In this document: piece by piece, positions 15,584-34,629 of the stretch
Position numbering within the stretch: the stretch's first letter is position 1
How the letters are laid out: each line of letters starts with the position of its first letter
Virus record (IMG/VR): IMGVR_UViG_3300048556_000290
Coordinates: 1 to 34,629 of that record
From: a virus
Length of the DNA: 34,629 nucleotides
Strand: one strand, 5' to 3'
Program-made: the position numbers and the translations under genes
Notes under the pieces: generated by a model
What the model saw: the letters and a program-made list of their open reading frames with translations, nothing else
The model's database searches: none
What the model was told of the DNA's origin: nothing

Positions 15584-16147
15584 ATGGGATTCTTAGATAA
15601 CATAAAAGATGTTCCGCAAAGCTCTTCGAGCGGTGGCGGTAATTACATGAAATTAACGCAAGGTACGAATCATTTTCGTATAGTTGGATCTTCCGATGAT
15701 GGTGGAGTAATCCAGGGTATGCTAGGTTGGGCGGGTTCCGCTGATGGTGGAAGAAGACCGCATCGTTGGAAGATCGGAGAGGATGCGCCAATGAGTTTTG
15801 AAGAGAAACCAAAGCAGTTCTTGGCGATGCTCGTATATAACTATGAGGAGGAGCGTATACAGATACTTGAATTGACTCAGGCAAAGTTACGCCAGGAGTT
15901 AATCACGCTTGCGAAGGATGAGGATTGGGGAGATCCACGCAAGTATGACCTGAAGATTGTACGCAATGGCGAAGGTTTGGAAACATCCTATGCGATGACT
16001 CCATCTCCGCACAAGAAGCGTAGTGATGAGATCAATGCGGCGGTGAAGGAGATGAAGATAAACCTCGAAGCATTATTCACCGGGGATGATCCATTTGCGC
16101 CACCTCCTGAGCCTGAAGATAACGCAAAAGAGGAGGACCCATTCTGA
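15584..16147 (+). CDS. Single-stranded DNA-binding-like protein
   Basis: 187 residues. The N-terminal part (about 20-110) has the beta-rich pattern of phage ssDNA-binding proteins (YMKLTQGTNHFRIVGSSDDG, GRRPHRWK). The C-terminus is a flexible acidic tail ending in EEDPF, similar to the acidic, Phe-ended tails with which SSB and gp32-type proteins contact replication partners. It opens the rightward replication and recombination operon, and its stop codon overlaps the next start. SSB role is inferred from the tail, length and context. Confidence 0.6.
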   Translation: MGFLDNIKDVPQSSSSGGGNYMKLTQGTNHFRIVGSSDDGGVIQGMLGWAGSADGGRRPHRWKIGEDAPMSFEEKPKQFLAMLVYNYEEERIQILELTQAKLRQELITLAKDEDWGDPRKYDLKIVRNGEGLETSYAMTPSPHKKRSDEINAAVKEMKINLEALFTGDDPFAPPPEPEDNAKEEDPF

Positions 16148-16443
16148 TGGCGATTAGCGACATAAAAAAGATAGTGGCGGATTACATGGGAACTACGGTT
16201 GATGAGATCAATTCCCGTAATCGTTTCAAGAATGTGGCACTAGCTCGTCAGATCGCGATGTTCTATTCGCATCTGATGGGCAACACACAGGAGGAAGTGG
16301 CTGAGAAGTTTGATCGAGTCCATACGAATGTGACCCATGCGGTGAAGAAGGTAAAGCAATGGCGGGAATGTGATCATGAGATCCGCGCAATGCTTGAAGG
16401 CATAGAAGGACAATATCCTCAACTGAAAGGCTTATCATGCTAA
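16147..16443 (+). CDS. Stand-alone DnaA domain IV (origin-binding helix-turn-helix) protein
   Basis: 98 residues that correspond only to the DNA-binding C-terminal domain of DnaA. VADYMGTTVDEINSRNRFKN and VALARQIAMFYSHLMGNTQE match the first helices of the family, and FDRVHTNVTHAVKKVKQW matches the DnaA signature region, where 'DHTTV..A' is usual and here reads 'VHTNVTHA'. There is no AAA+ ATPase part. The protein could mark a phage origin for host DnaA or for the phage helicase loader, or compete with host DnaA. It sits between the SSB-like and exonuclease genes and overlaps the latter. Confidence 0.75.
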   Translation: MAISDIKKIVADYMGTTVDEINSRNRFKNVALARQIAMFYSHLMGNTQEEVAEKFDRVHTNVTHAVKKVKQWRECDHEIRAMLEGIEGQYPQLKGLSC

Positions 16444-19006: not shown

Positions 19007-19123
19007 ATGGATGGGATAAGAAATGTACTTAAGTTACTACTTCATGGACTGCTTTTTGCAGTCTGTGGGGTAGTATTTTTCACAATTATCATGGGACTTG
19101 TTTGCACAATTTTAGGATTATAA
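19007..19123 (+). CDS. 38-residue membrane peptide
   Basis: A tiny gene between the ParB-like and helicase-loader genes. The ATG lies five bases after the preceding stop, and the stop shares one base with the next ATG (TAATG). Almost the whole product after residue 7 is hydrophobic (LLFAVCGVVFFTIIMGLVCT), enough for one membrane pass. No clear ribosome-binding site is seen. Role unknown; small phage membrane peptides of this type may modify host envelope functions. Confidence 0.5.
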   Translation: MDGIRNVLKLLLHGLLFAVCGVVFFTIIMGLVCTILGL

Positions 19124-19608
19124 TGACAGACGAAATACAGAAAAAGACAGAACTGCGCATCAAGGTTCCTCAATGGATAAGTGATCTTTTGAAAGAGCAT
19201 TGTGATCTTTATGGAGTGACCGCAGTTTCCACCATTACTCCACTCCTGGTGGAGTATCTGCGGCATCCCTCGCGCGTGCGCGACAATTGTTCCAATTGTT
19301 TTAATATTAATAATAGCGAAAAATCCGCGATTAGTGGAAAGAAGAAAACAAAAACGAGGGCATCCAAGATACCCTCTAATTTTGATCCTCCCAAAGAGAT
19401 TGCATTGAAGGAAGGACTCAATCACTCGGAAGCGGTTTCCATCTTCGTGGATTGGGCGAAGGGCAAGGGACATGTCCAAGCAGATTGGATTGCCACATAT
19501 CGCAATGCATGCAGGAGATGGATCAAGGACAAGATGCCCCAGGCAAATAACGATCCAATCCTCAAGGAGGTCACAATTCCTGAATACGAGGACGAGGAAG
19601 AGTTTTGA
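19123..19608 (+). CDS. Replisome organiser / helicase loader-like protein
   Basis: 161 residues from the ATG at 19123. Residues 10-45 form an RHH- or HTH-like region (LRIKVPQWISDLLKEHCDLY), followed by a basic linker (KKTKTRASK). The C-terminal domain (FDPPKEIALKEGLNHSEAVS, IFVDWAKGKGHVQADWIATY, RNACRRWIKD) follows the pattern of DnaT-like and phage replication-protein C-terminal domains, with a typical 'DW.A..RN..RRW' ending. It is directly followed, with one shared base, by the DnaB-type helicase gene. Loading that helicase at an origin is the likely job. Confidence 0.65.
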   Translation: MTDEIQKKTELRIKVPQWISDLLKEHCDLYGVTAVSTITPLLVEYLRHPSRVRDNCSNCFNINNSEKSAISGKKKTKTRASKIPSNFDPPKEIALKEGLNHSEAVSIFVDWAKGKGHVQADWIATYRNACRRWIKDKMPQANNDPILKEVTIPEYEDEEEF

Positions 19609-20867
19609 TGGATTTCCTTGTATCAGAGCAGGCGGTCCTAGCCGCATGTCTTAGGGATGACACAAATCTCTCCACCGCCACAGCGGTTGAGCGTTTAACG
19701 GAGGATGACTTCACCTCGCCCGCGCACAAAGCGATATTCCGTTTGATCGCACAGCGATCCGAGGTCAACGAGGTGGATGTGGCGATTGAGCTACCTGAGT
19801 ATTCCTCAGAAGCTCTAGAACTTGCGGAGAAGTATGGCGGTGGACAGGTGGAGAGATATGTGGATCAATTGGTGGAGTCGAGGAACAGACGCGAAGTGGA
19901 ACGAGCGCTCATGGTATCTACGGATATGCTCAGGGAGGGTAAACAATCAGATGAGATTGCCTCAGAGTTCAATCTCAGGGTAGCCAAAGCATTAGCATCA
20001 GGGAAGGGACAGGTAAAAGTGGGACCCGCCACCAAGGAAGCACATTCTGAGTTTCTTTCCATAGATGCGGGAGAATCATCCGCAGTAAGCACAGGATTCA
20101 AACGATTGGATTTTTGTCTAAGCGGAGGATTCCAACCGGGAAAGCTTTATGTCCTAGCCGCAAGACCTGGGGTAGGGAAGTCAGGACTCGCATTGCATTT
20201 CTCTCATGAGATTGCCAAGAGGGGATACCGTGCAAGCTACGCATCTTTGGAGATGAGTGCTTCGGAATGCTCCGGGCGGTTACTCTCCCGCGAGAGCGGG
20301 GTTGCCCGCCCACGCATGAAAGGGGATCTTCTCCCCGCACATCGTAAGAAGCTCGAGGATGCCACAAAGAGGATGCAGGGATGGCCCATCACCTTCAAGG
20401 ATGACAACAAGGCCACGCTTGATTCCATCCGCGCCTTTCTCGCCCAAGAACGAGTGAAAGGAGATGTGGGGTTGGCGGTGATTGATTATTTGCAATTAGT
20501 CTCCGCTCCAGGATACGAATCCCGCGTGCAGGAGATCACCGCCATTTCTCGTAGTCTCAAACAGATCAGTATGGAATTACAGATTCCGGTCCTCGCCCTT
20601 TCTCAATTATCAAGACAATGCGAGATCAATAACAGAAAGCCCATGCTCTCCGATCTGAGAGACTCCGGGAGTATCGAACAGGATGCAGATTGCGTGTTTC
20701 TCCTATCAGTTGAGGACAAGGTGGATGAGACCAAGGACCGCATCAATTGCCATATCGCCAAAAACCGCGGTGGAGAGACTGATCTCATGGTCACGCTTGG
20801 TTTTGAGAAGAGTACGGGCAATTGGACTACAAGCCTAGGCGAAAAGAAAGAAACAAAGCCTTGGTGA
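19608..20867 (+). CDS. dnaB: DnaB-type replicative DNA helicase
   Basis: 419 residues from the ATG at 19608 (an upstream in-frame TTG is less likely). The N-terminal helical domain (MDFLVSEQAVLAACLRDDTN) and RecA-like core are complete: Walker A ARPGVGKS (185-192), catalytic Glu near 215 (YASLEMS), Walker B Asp293 (LAVIDYLQLV), the LALSQLSRQCE sensor loop and the RDSGSIEQDAD motif. It unwinds the phage fork 5' to 3'. Because no phage DNA polymerase is seen, it must work with host DNA polymerase III. The product is followed by a bidirectional terminator. Confidence 0.92.
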   Translation: MDFLVSEQAVLAACLRDDTNLSTATAVERLTEDDFTSPAHKAIFRLIAQRSEVNEVDVAIELPEYSSEALELAEKYGGGQVERYVDQLVESRNRREVERALMVSTDMLREGKQSDEIASEFNLRVAKALASGKGQVKVGPATKEAHSEFLSIDAGESSAVSTGFKRLDFCLSGGFQPGKLYVLAARPGVGKSGLALHFSHEIAKRGYRASYASLEMSASECSGRLLSRESGVARPRMKGDLLPAHRKKLEDATKRMQGWPITFKDDNKATLDSIRAFLAQERVKGDVGLAVIDYLQLVSAPGYESRVQEITAISRSLKQISMELQIPVLALSQLSRQCEINNRKPMLSDLRDSGSIEQDADCVFLLSVEDKVDETKDRINCHIAKNRGGETDLMVTLGFEKSTGNWTTSLGEKKETKPW

Positions 20868-21105: not shown

Positions 21106-21302
21106 TAATTGAAGTTAAAATGTAACTGCAATTTCTCGCGCTCAGTCAGCCTCACATGTGCGCGTTTCTCCTTACGCTTAGCGCGGATCGTTTCACGATC
21201 GCCCGCCTTGCGTTCCCTCGTTTCTCTTTCCTTTCGTGCTTTCTCGCCTATCTCGATCAATTGACTGACCGCCTGAGCGAATAGGTTTTCGGCGTGCTTC
21301 AT
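21105..21302 (-). CDS. Highly charged 65-residue protein
   Basis: 65 residues. The first third is an amphipathic helix (ENLFAQAVSQLIEIGEKARK), and the rest is dominated by alternating Arg, Lys and Glu (RETRERKAGDRETIRAKRKE), probably a single long charged helix. Its start overlaps the stop of the upstream membrane gene by four bases and its stop shares one base with the downstream start. It contains one copy of the GATCGT-TTC-ACGATC hairpin inside the reading frame (21186-21200). Function unknown. Confidence 0.6.
   Translation of the reverse strand: MKHAENLFAQAVSQLIEIGEKARKERETRERKAGDRETIRAKRKEKRAHVRLTEREKLQLHFNFN
21186..21200. repeat. GATC-TTC hairpin, copy 1
   Basis: GATCGT-TTC-ACGATC, six-pair stem with a TTC loop, inside an 18-base block GCGGATCGTTTCACGATC identical to the one at 22870. 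This copy lies inside the 65-residue gene. Confidence 0.75.
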
Positions 21303-21811: not shown

Positions 21812-22762
21812 CTAGCTGTGTATTCCAATACCAATTACAACGCCGCGCAACCTATCGGAACCGCACGCATGCTGTTTGCGTGCAATGCAATTGCCACATG
21901 CTCCCGGACAAGCAAAGACTTTCTTATGGCCCGCTTTTCTCAATTGGATTGCAACTTCTTTACGGTATTCGTTTGAACCATCATTGTCTTTGTCCTGGTA
22001 GGCCTTGCTAGTTATCCATTTCCTTGCAACGGGGACCGCTACAAACTCGCCGCGCGTGCAATCCAATTGCAAAACCTTATCTTTAACTTTGGAACCGTAC
22101 CGGGACCCGCTTGAAACATTTAAAAGATAGTTTGCCGGGAAAGAATACCCTTGCTTGTCCAAAGTAAGAAATAATTGCCATGATTTTGAATAACCGTATA
22201 CCTTCAAATCTTCCCGCGCTTTGCATTGGTCCATCCAAAAGCGCAAAATTGCTAAATTGGCAAAATCCCCGTCAACATAAAGGCGAACGGTCCGCCCGGC
22301 GGGAATATTAGCAAATTCATTTGAGATTAAGGCCCGGCCCGCTTTTGACCGTAAAAGAATACTGTTTTGCAATTGCCGGAAAAAAGCCGCCGGGTAACGC
22401 CACCCGGTAAATGAATAGCACCAACCTTTCCCAAAGTTTTCCGGCGTAAAATCATTGTCCCCGTACAAACAAGCGCCCGCACCCGGACAATCGAAACCGG
22501 GTAAACTCGAAAATGCATAGAATGGCAATTTCATGTTACCTGATTCTGCAAATACGGAAAAATACAACGGCCCGCTTTGATCTTCGAACCAAGAAAGGAA
22601 CCGCGTTGCATAGTACTTAGTGGTACCGCGTGCGCTCGGATCTCCAGGAATAGCCGCAATAAGTTTGGAGAGTAAGGGTAAATCATTGGCAAGCGCGGCC
22701 CGCGCTAAATCAATTTTACCCGGCGTGGATAATTTGGGTGGAATCATAGTTTTTTCTTTCAT
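21812..22762 (-). CDS. GP88-like cysteine-rich protein
   Basis: 316 residues; a second in-frame ATG at 22747 is possible. The pattern resembles the phage 'gene product 88' family: an early SLPGFDCPGAGACLYG motif, a GWCYSFTGWRYPAAFFRQLQ helix, conserved VRLYVDGDFAN, and a C-terminal cysteine group (VFACPGACGNCIARKQHACG). The Cys spacing suggests a metal or Fe-S site. The family has no established activity known to me. Its DNA is unusually rich in CCGG- and CAATTG-type palindromes and has different codon use from neighbours, which suggests separate origin. It heads a leftward operon with its own promoter. Confidence 0.6.
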   Translation of the reverse strand: MKEKTMIPPKLSTPGKIDLARAALANDLPLLSKLIAAIPGDPSARGTTKYYATRFLSWFEDQSGPLYFSVFAESGNMKLPFYAFSSLPGFDCPGAGACLYGDNDFTPENFGKGWCYSFTGWRYPAAFFRQLQNSILLRSKAGRALISNEFANIPAGRTVRLYVDGDFANLAILRFWMDQCKAREDLKVYGYSKSWQLFLTLDKQGYSFPANYLLNVSSGSRYGSKVKDKVLQLDCTRGEFVAVPVARKWITSKAYQDKDNDGSNEYRKEVAIQLRKAGHKKVFACPGACGNCIARKQHACGSDRLRGVVIGIGIHS

Positions 22763-22769
22763 GCTTCCA

Positions 22770-22799
22770 TCTATAAACTACAGATAGCAACAAAGTCAA
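22770..22799 (-). promoter_or_regulatory. Leftward promoter of the GP88-like operon
   Basis: On the - strand TTGACT is followed after 18 bases by TATAGA (complement of 22770-22775), a good sigma70 match. The -10 begins 13 bases before the ATG at 22762, so the mRNA would start at or very near the start codon. AACTACAGAT (22776-22785, + strand) lies between the two boxes. Confidence 0.55.
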
Positions 22800-22872
22800 A
22801 CAAATAAAACAAAAAAGTGTATTCATACCTTTAACACTATAGAAACGCGCTCCCTTACTTCGCGGATCAGCG

Positions 22873-22887
22873 GATCGTTTCACGATC
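22873..22887. repeat. GATC-TTC hairpin, copy 2
   Basis: Same GATCGT-TTC-ACGATC hairpin and the same 18-base block (22870-22887) as copy 1, here in non-coding DNA and joined to the palindrome GATCATATGATC. Confidence 0.75.
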
Positions 22888-23006
22888 ATATGATCAGCGC
22901 CAAGAGCTACCACATGAGCAATGGATTGACGCGGATCAAGGCAAAAAGCGATTGACGCAAATCGACAGATATCAATGCATTTCTGCACCCATGGCTAAAA
23001 AATCAC

Positions 23007-23027
23007 TATTGCAAGTAACTTGCAATA
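23007..23027. repeat. Perfect 21-base palindrome
   Basis: Arms TATTGCAAGT and ACTTGCAATA around a single A. A second short palindrome ATTGC-AC-GCAAT follows at 23032-23043. Protein-binding site or cruciform in the candidate origin. Confidence 0.6.
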
Positions 23028-23153
23028 AGAGATTGCACGCAATGCGGAAAACAGCTTGCCATGAATCCGCAAGAATCCGCTTAAAACCTAGCATGTTTTC
23101 CCGCTTTCCTGGCGTGCAATTGCGTAAAGTGCTGATAGTCAACGCTATCATGT

Positions 23154-23178
23154 AGCATGTGACTTAGAATCACATGCT
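23154..23178. repeat. Strong hairpin in the non-coding region
   Basis: AGCATGTGA (23154-23162) and TCACATGCT (23170-23178), nine perfect pairs around a seven-base loop. No T-run follows, so it is not a standard terminator. Confidence 0.6.
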
Positions 23179-23285
23179 TTCGAGCTAACGCGCGTTAACG
23201 CCAGGCGCGCAGACCCGGGGGGGCGGGGGTGTGCGCTCGTCCGCGCTAATTCTGTATTATCATCACCACCCCGCATAATTTTTTC

Positions 23286-23335
23286 GCCATACGGTTTCCC
23301 CGCAAATCGCGCCTCCTGCCATACGGTTTCCCCGC
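23286..23335. repeat. Pair of 18-base direct repeats
   Basis: GCCATACGGTTTCCCCGC occurs at 23286-23303 and 23318-23335, a 32-base period. The period is not a multiple of three, so the repeat is conserved as DNA, not as protein. Iteron or regulator-binding site likely. Confidence 0.7.
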
Positions 23336-23383
23336 CATTTGCCTTATCCCTCACATCAAGCGTTAGTCCTCGCCTTATACGCG

Positions 23384-23398
23384 GATCGGTTCCCGATC
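23384..23398. repeat. GATC-TTC hairpin, copy 3 with a compensatory base pair
   Basis: GATCGG-TTC-CCGATC: the last stem pair is G-C instead of T-A, so pairing and the TTC loop are kept although both bases changed. Outer arms ATACG (23377-23381) and CGTAT (23402-23406) extend it. Confidence 0.65.
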
Positions 23399-23431
23399 AT
23401 CCGTATTGTACGAAATGCTGTACAGGTGGTT

Positions 23432-23851
23432 CTACGGGGTTTTAAAGAGATCCCACGCCTCGCGGTATTTTTCGTGCTTTGCCTTGGAGAGTGGGTTATG
23501 AGCGTAGAGGGATATGCGCAGGGCCTGGTTTAGTTCGAGGCATGGTATTATGTACCAAGTGGGTATAGCTTCGACATAAGCGGCGAGTATGTCGACTTTC
23601 GTGCAATCTATGGTCATTTTCTTGGAAGTGCCTGATGCGGTGGTGATCATATATCTGCCTTGTCCGGCATTTGCTTTATCGAATACTTTATCCTTAGTGC
23701 CTTTGATTTGTACTTTGAATACTTTGCCCGCTTGGTTCATGACTAGGCAATCCTGAGGTAGGTAATCGCCCAGGGGGGTAAATACTTCAAGATTACGGGA
23801 TAGTGCTTCCGTGAAGAATGTTTGTTCGTAGAGGGAGCCTCTACGCTTCAT
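23432..23851 (-). CDS. PD-(D/E)XK endonuclease
   Basis: 139 residues that fit the small PD-(D/E)XK endonuclease family (PF11645-like, related to archaeal resolvases and to some intron endonucleases). Motifs in order: LYEQTFFTEALSRNLEVFTP at the N-terminus, Asp34 (GDYLPQDCLV), the Q-I-K triad 48-50 (KVFKVQIKGT), and the later KVDILAAYVEAIPTWYIIPC strand-helix. It overlaps the upstream gene by 11 bases. It may cut branched or foreign DNA; the natural substrate is unknown. The 670-base non-coding region lies directly downstream. Confidence 0.75.
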   Translation of the reverse strand: MKRRGSLYEQTFFTEALSRNLEVFTPLGDYLPQDCLVMNQAGKVFKVQIKGTKDKVFDKANAGQGRYMITTASGTSKKMTIDCTKVDILAAYVEAIPTWYIIPCLELNQALRISLYAHNPLSKAKHEKYREAWDLFKTP

Positions 23852-24419: not shown

Positions 24420-24863
24420 ATGGATACGGAACGGGCGGGAAAGATATTGGAGAGGCATGGTCTTACGAAGAAGGCATTTGCTGACATGATGGGGGTGAAG
24501 GCGAGTACTGCGAGGATGGCGTTCAGTCTGAAGAGGTTCAGCAAGAAGATGGTGGCTAAATTGGAGGAGTTGGAGGAGGAGTTGAATATTCAGCGAGATT
24601 TAGCGGAAGTGGATGAGATGATAGATGAGGCCCAGGAGAAGAGGGTAAGTATTATTGAGGGGATGGTGAGGCAGAGTAGGGGGAATGCTTTGGTGCAGGA
24701 TGCGAAGGTATACGGGGTGCCTAAGAATAGATTTATTAGATTGATAGAATTTGCGGATGGTAGTCATGGAAAGTTTAGGAGCAAACCGGGCAAGTATTTG
24801 AAGTTGGGAGAGAGTGTGAAGGTGAAGCATTTGGACAGGGATATGTGGGAAGTGGTTAAATGA
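24420..24863 (+). CDS. Helix-turn-helix transcriptional regulator
   Basis: 147 residues. Residues 5-53 form an XRE-like HTH (ERAGKILERHGLTKKAFADM, MGVKASTARMAFSLKRFSKK), then a coiled-coil helix (LEELEEELNIQRDLAEVDEM) and a C-terminal beta domain (FADGSHGKFRSKPGKYLKLG, VKVKHLDRDMWEVV) that looks SH3- or OB-like. The gene is divergent from the leftward operon, with a palindrome overlapping its own promoter, so autoregulation is likely. It may be the Cro- or CI-type switch of this phage; no LexA-like protease domain is present. Confidence 0.65.
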   Translation: MDTERAGKILERHGLTKKAFADMMGVKASTARMAFSLKRFSKKMVAKLEELEEELNIQRDLAEVDEMIDEAQEKRVSIIEGMVRQSRGNALVQDAKVYGVPKNRFIRLIEFADGSHGKFRSKPGKYLKLGESVKVKHLDRDMWEVVK

Positions 24864-34356: not shown

Positions 34357-34385
34357 GAGGGGGGTTCGCGATGCGGACCTCCCTC
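34357..34385 (+). terminator. Strong hairpin after the capsid gene, partial terminator or stabiliser
   Basis: GAGGGGGGTTCG (34357-34368) pairs with CGGACCTCCCTC (34374-34385), 12 pairs including G-U, with a CGATG loop. Only TAACCTTTA follows, so termination would be weak. It may raise capsid mRNA relative to downstream genes. The window's left end matches exactly the last base of this hairpin. Confidence 0.6.
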
Positions 34386-34629
34386 TAACCTTTACTAAAA
34401 ATGGCGGAAATATTCTTACCTAAATGGAAAAGCGGAAACGGATCGCAGTTTATGAAGAACCTCGACCGTTATTTGCGTTACGAGGTAGACATGGAAAAAT
34501 CACAGTTAGCTATGCGTGAAGCACAATGTCGCAAAGAGAACCGCGAGATGGGTTCCGCCAAGATGGAAGGGCTTGGACAACTAAAAGCATCCATCCCTGC
34601 CCGCGATTATTTTCGTTGGCATCAATTTA
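34385..34629. repeat. Right copy of the terminal overlap repeat
   Basis: Matches bases 1-245 with 17 substitutions, all after the 99th base. It begins at the last base of the post-capsid hairpin. Confidence 0.9.
34401..34629 (+). CDS. Partial second copy of the first gene
   Basis: The 76 complete codons before the window ends match the gene at 17 except for two residues (A-D at 54-55 becomes M-E). The ATG and the bases before it are identical. It is cut by the window edge. If the genome is circular this is the same locus as gene 17-364 from another strain. Confidence 0.8.
   Translation, partial: MAEIFLPKWKSGNGSQFMKNLDRYLRYEVDMEKSQLAMREAQCRKENREMGSAKMEGLGQLKASIPARDYFRWHQF

Follow-up and report, generated by a model that had tools for sequence, protein, structure and literature searches.

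The non-coding region at positions 22763 to 23431 (no strand assigned) of the window, that is, of the whole 34,629-bp virus record analysed here, is probably a phage replication origin, an assignment drawn from sequence comparison to which we give a probability of roughly 0.8. Within it lies a 75-bp core (23217 to 23291, + strand) that runs from a G-tract to a T-tract and the motif CGCCATA. The explanation that best accounts for the evidence as a whole, and which we consider likely, is that the region is the origin and that the core starts leading-strand synthesis of the + strand rightward, toward the terminase genes. To our knowledge, the origins of uncultured phages have almost never been located; in more than 100 of them, a single short element now marks the likely origin and gives a prediction of its strand, direction, and point of initiation.

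The region is flanked on the left by GP88 (PF17338, minus strand) and on the right by a PD-(D/E)XK endonuclease-like gene (PF11645, minus strand). Its longest internal ORF (22716 to 22988, minus strand) has no Pfam or PHROG match and is disrupted or diverged in relatives; the first-pass annotation, which saw no believable gene here, is therefore upheld. A search of the window against Rfam also returned nothing. The first 245 bp of the window recur at its end with 93% identity (1 to 245 versus 34385 to 34629); probably the record is circular, at about 34.4 kb, and was assembled from two strains, or else the start of one gene has been duplicated.

The repeats, palindromes, hairpins, and G-run listed in the first-pass annotation were all found where it had placed them. 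Compared with 200 dinucleotide-preserving shuffles, the region holds more repeated 10-mers (9 versus 0.36, with 0/200 shuffles as high) and more hairpins with a stem of at least 9 (2 versus 0.01; 0/200) than chance would supply, whereas hairpins with a stem of 7 are not unusual (24/200). A perfect 21-bp palindrome, TATTGCAAGTAACTTGCAATA, lies at 23007 to 23027 (no strand assigned), and related words are enriched in relatives. Two hairpins of the form GATCG-TTC-CGATC, again without assigned strand, are GATCGTTTCACGATC (22873 to 22887) and GATCGGTTCCCGATC (23384 to 23398); with a further exact copy at 21186 to 21200, the hairpin GATCGNTTCNCGATC occurs three times within 2.2 kb, and its stems show two-sided changes between copies and relatives (e.g., GGCCGGTTCCCGGCC in L001).

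The direct repeats, which had been proposed as iterons, are not supported as a functional part. Each family has two copies and no more: ATTGACGC at 22925 and 22951, and GCCATACGGTTTCCCCGC with starts at 23286 and 23318 (23286 to 23335, + strand). The former is missing from several relatives; the latter is single-copy in the close relatives L065 and L138 and is thus a lineage-specific, dispensable duplication. Repeats on the same side of the core exceed chance in 43 of 90 loci, differing from lineage to lineage, and none exceed it in the other 47, so the conserved array of direct repeats that defines an iteron origin is lacking. Fast-changing short tandem arrays (CAAACCCGG; GGGAAAGCGGGGAAAG) occur left of the core in L001, L004, L005, L006, and L007 and are absent from the window.

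What relatives do keep is the core. A search with GP88 gave 30 related loci, and in relatives whose GP88 is about 65% identical nearly all of the region is gone save the stretch around the G-run. The first-pass annotation had proposed comparing related phages for conserved repeats; its direct repeats did not hold up there, and the shared element proved to be a G-run/AT/C-run/T-run core of which it had named only the G-run. The layout is G7CG5, about 19 variable nt, TTCTGTATTATCATCACCACCCC, and then TTTTTTCGCCATA. The interrupted G-tract (23217 to 23229, + strand; G7[A/C]G5-6 in relatives) is the sole copy of G7CG5 and the longest run of G or C in the genome. It is followed on the + strand by an AT element and C-run, TTCTGTATTATCATCACCACCCCGCAT (23248 to 23274), defined from an alignment of 87 distinct core sequences, and by the T-tract TTTTTTCGCCATA (23279 to 23291).

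We scanned viral DNA with a pattern consisting of a G-run, 14–34 nt, and TATTATNNTMACNNCCC, which matched at least 119 stretches. The main group comprises at least 110 of these, loci in IMG/VR with a few from contigs already fetched; it is counted separately because L044, L133, and L148 belong to another phage lineage. Since the pattern itself fixes some positions, only those outside it were taken to speak independently for conservation. Such positions include the T-tract, CGC, and TA after the C-run, which are conserved all the same, with the T, C, and TA positions of the T-tract segment invariant or nearly so in the 87 aligned cores. The spacing from the inner G-run to the C-run is 53–55 nt in nearly all of the loci listed. 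The core is present exactly once in 20 of 20 longer records, and a reversed control pattern has no match in these 20 genomes.

The phages with the core are mostly marine-looking, habitat being our reading of sample types. Neither the region nor the core has a DNA match in the named-phage collections searched, and as a sequence class the core is new to those collections, although a replication origin is a kind of element already known; we did not find the core described in the literature searched, a weak negative given that subscription papers were largely outside its coverage. Two GTDB MAG contigs also carry the core, L185 (PBSV01000023.1) and L186 (JALRFC010000018.1). They come from an Opitutia MAG and a Kapaibacterium MAG, bins that alone are no basis for naming a host, and we read them as phage contigs because one of them also encodes a terminase at 80% identity. 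One further contig, G003 (L102 and L022), has a different version of the core at each end, which points to a probable join, at this conserved element, of sequence from two strains.

Evidence that the core belongs to an origin comes from strand composition, which we examined in the window and 18 fetched relatives, all oriented by the core. Left of the core, the + strand has a slightly negative GC skew, which rises to +0.25 to +0.32 at 0.5–2 kb on the right and decays rightward to about 0.03 by 8 kb. Gene direction can be excluded as the cause because minus-strand genes on the right share the positive skew of the + strand: at third positions of minus-strand genes it is 0.02 to 0.10 immediately left of the core and +0.28 to +0.33 immediately right of it, and in the window alone the third-position values are 0.00 for GP88, +0.40 for the PD-(D/E)XK gene, +0.46 for P172, and +0.80 for HTH147.

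In all 17 testable genomes, the largest step in GC skew is no more than 0.6 kb from the core; two others, in which the core sits at a contig end, were left out of this count. The cumulative GC-skew minimum lies 141–568 bp to the right of the core in all nine near-complete genomes, treated as circles; there is no clean terminus opposite the core. The first-pass annotation had named a skew switch elsewhere in the genome as evidence against an origin; in every testable genome the switch sits at this region, which supports the origin interpretation. The pattern is a classical sign of an origin and supports the + strand leading rightward, and because the left side has just a small dip in skew, initiation mainly in one direction is suggested.

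The genes around the core are arranged consistently. On every contig of sufficient length, dnaB stands to the left of the core and P172, HTH147, and terminase to its right, with GP88 and the PD-(D/E)XK gene variably present beside the core. Replication genes (SSB, RuvC-like, loader, and DnaB) are on the left; the nearest conserved one is the DnaB-type replicative helicase (19605 to 20867, + strand; PF03796, E 8e-65), adjoined by a probable helicase loader (19102 to 19608, + strand) with weak PHROG matches to primosomal/initiation proteins. The large terminase gene lies 4 kb to the right, and its product resembled a single record, Phage C75C1, at 31%. In some phages the slot right of the core (23432 to 23851 in the window) is occupied by the PD-(D/E)XK gene; L024, L025, and L027 have there an HNH-like gene assigned by motif, as if nuclease genes insert beside the origin.

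No initiator common to the whole group was found among 19 genomes or contigs. The window encodes a 98-aa protein consisting of DnaA domain IV only (16147 to 16443, + strand; PDB 1j1v, E 9e-10), whose DNA specificity may differ because its recognition region reads RVHTNV in place of the RDHTTV of Escherichia coli. Its gene is present in 8 of 19 genomes or contigs, the window included and several contigs being incomplete, and it is unlikely to be a universal initiator. GP88 was rejected as a cognate initiator, as many loci with the core do not have it. Two genes adjoin the core across the group: P172 (23841 to 24359, minus strand), with no family match and a low-confidence fold, and HTH147 (24420 to 24863, + strand), predicted to comprise a helix-turn-helix, a long helix, and, at the C-terminus, a beta domain that weakly resembles OB/S1 domains in Foldseek (with no hit below E 1e-3). 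As modelled, HTH147 is a candidate initiator present throughout the group.

For the start itself, we tentatively prefer priming by a transcript (an R-loop) at the core. The start would be made by a short transcript running rightward across the core; its G7CG5 segment may stay on the template strand, or join the displaced G-rich strand in a hybrid quadruplex, and transcription would stall near the T-tract, about 60 nt past the G-tract. The stalled RNA end could then be extended as the primer for the + leading strand, with the loader placing DnaB on the displaced strand. There are precedents for such steps: at T4 oriF, a promoter and an unwinding element yield R-loops that prime the leading strand one way (PMC3016281), and in human mitochondria an interrupted tract of 12–15 G stalls transcription through a hybrid quadruplex, linked to primer formation, with the G-tract of CSB2 ranging from G5AG7 to G6AG9 and terminated products found near T-tracts (PMC5027508).

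The G-rich sense of the core is rightward, the same as the skew, and, as in CSB2, an interrupted G-tract of at least 12 G is followed by a T-tract downstream in the same sense. The absence of universal iterons or DnaA boxes across the main-group loci also counts for the transcript model. In 17 of 98 loci, and never in shuffles, the motif TATAAA.AGACGC stands to the left of the G-tract at a distance of 23–34 nt; the motif is absent from the window, whose region also has no sigma-70-like promoter (0 found versus 1.3 expected). RNAalifold gave a weak 4-pair stem between G-run and C-run and nothing stronger for the core. Counting against the model, the base that interrupts the G-tract is C, not A, in most members.

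Slightly less probable, in our view, is that the same origin starts otherwise: an initiator (host DnaA, or the phage DnaA domain-IV protein, HTH147, or P172) would bind left of the core and melt the AT element, and helicase and primase would start both strands. The sequences left of the core offer candidate binding sites. A conserved imperfect palindrome, AGCATGTGACTTAGAATCACATGCT (23154 to 23178, + strand; it includes GCATGTGACTTAGAATCACATGC at 23155 to 23177), has 42 distinct versions in relatives, and its arms covary more than in shuffles and slid controls (for AGCANNNGACTNNGAATCNNNTGCT, 79.6% paired, with 42 double changes versus 26.7 in shuffles); CTTGCAA/TTGCAAG words occur left of the core in 61 of 94 loci versus 13.5 expected. 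Both would fit a hairpin or the binding of a dimeric protein. Many lineages keep palindromes on this side, but the left-side motifs vary by lineage, canonical DnaA boxes near the main-group core are at chance (7 loci with a match, 6.6 matches expected on a uniform-base estimate), and the phage's own DnaA domain-IV gene, which speaks for melting, is found in just those 8 of 19 genomes or contigs, many of them incomplete.

The other argument for melting comes from a second lineage. In L044, L133, and L148, which have no gene matches to the window, GGGGGGAGGGGG, about 16 nt, ATTATTAT, and CCCCCC stand directly beside an array of TGTGGATAA boxes, and a second pattern found four more carriers of the module, L193–L196. 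These phages are podovirus-like, with terminase and portal of types other than those of the window, and in all seven 5–7 consensus DnaA boxes (CTGTGGATAA) abut GGGGGGAGGGGG and the AT/C-run module; the skew flips sign at the module (gene direction not separated). Their module is likely a DnaA-dependent phage origin, and its array links the G-run/AT/C-run module to DnaA-type origins. The box orientation and box-to-AT spacing in L044 (a reversed box and a spacer of about 27 nt) misfit the published BUS layout (PMC8287927). If the transcript model holds for the main group, the DnaA-box lineage would be a case of one module answering to two different triggers.

That the core is no origin but a strong rightward promoter or attenuator is unlikely. 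Some lineages do have the promoter-like TATAAA, and long-lived R-loops or a strong rightward transcript could by themselves skew composition, damage to the displaced strand in R-loops being expected to have the same effect. Against this, the region of the window has no sigma-70-like site, the skew extends about 8 kb, the cumulative-skew minimum of the whole genome falls at the core, and the transcript would be antisense to the PD-(D/E)XK gene and P172, both on the minus strand just right of the core.

Very unlikely is a packaging start (pac/cos) with P172 as small terminase, which would leave the skew switch unexplained. P172 is predicted helical and always nearby, the large terminase gene is 4 kb rightward, and of 86 contigs, 6 break off no more than 30 nt to the right of the core, contig ends being an indirect measure; yet nearly all contigs span the core, ends of near-complete contigs are scattered, and breaks are expected at a sequence common to co-occurring strains. 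P172 matches no terminase family, and its model (mean pLDDT 55) is unusable.

Least probable is a site for prophage attachment (attP) or for partition, or an immunity locus (the latter two raised in the first-pass annotation and now disfavoured). There are palindromes, a nearby HTH gene, and a phage-encoded integrase, but that integrase is 8–9.6 kb away and no partition gene pair adjoins the core, which leaves no argument for partition or attP. Integrated copies were not found, both of the GTDB MAG contigs looking like phage contigs, and none of the three readings predicts the skew. A terminase search for prophages in 384 Opitutia-class genomes returned just the phage-like contig itself and distant matches of 28–34%.

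Returning to the replication origin, four known systems invite comparison. Iteron origins (lambda ori, P1 oriR type) likewise have direct repeats near an AT-rich part, but those here are present in two copies, are specific to a lineage, and prove dispensable in close relatives. Bacterial oriC (DnaA boxes, DnaA-trios/BUS) shares a GC-rich cluster adjoining a triplet-like AT element, and a DnaA-box array does stand beside a similar module in the other phage lineage; in the main group, an oriC-type cluster is absent, and there are AT triplets but no box, and in L044 spacing and orientation misfit a BUS (DnaA-trios no more than 16 bp from a box).

T4 oriF/oriG are closer, as short non-coding elements with an AT-rich part, a one-way leading-strand start (proposed here for the core), and a phage-encoded helicase and loader. 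They differ in that the window has no recognisable promoter and that the T4 origins, mutually little alike in sequence, have no described G-tract core (PMC3016281).

The mitochondrial LSP-CSB2-OriH system is not homologous; the phage tract is often interrupted by C, and the phage has SSB, loader, and DnaB and presumably uses host polymerases. Both have an interrupted tract of 12–14 G on the strand of the proposed RNA sense, followed by a T-tract, together with strand displacement in one direction, suggested for the phage, and a composition skew. It is doubtful at present whether replication across a large group of uncultured phages begins from a transcript that stalls at an interrupted G-tract followed by a T-tract, as a convergent counterpart of the mitochondrial LSP-CSB2 primer switch; if the G-tract transcript model is true, the mitochondrial mode of making primers would also exist in DNA phages.
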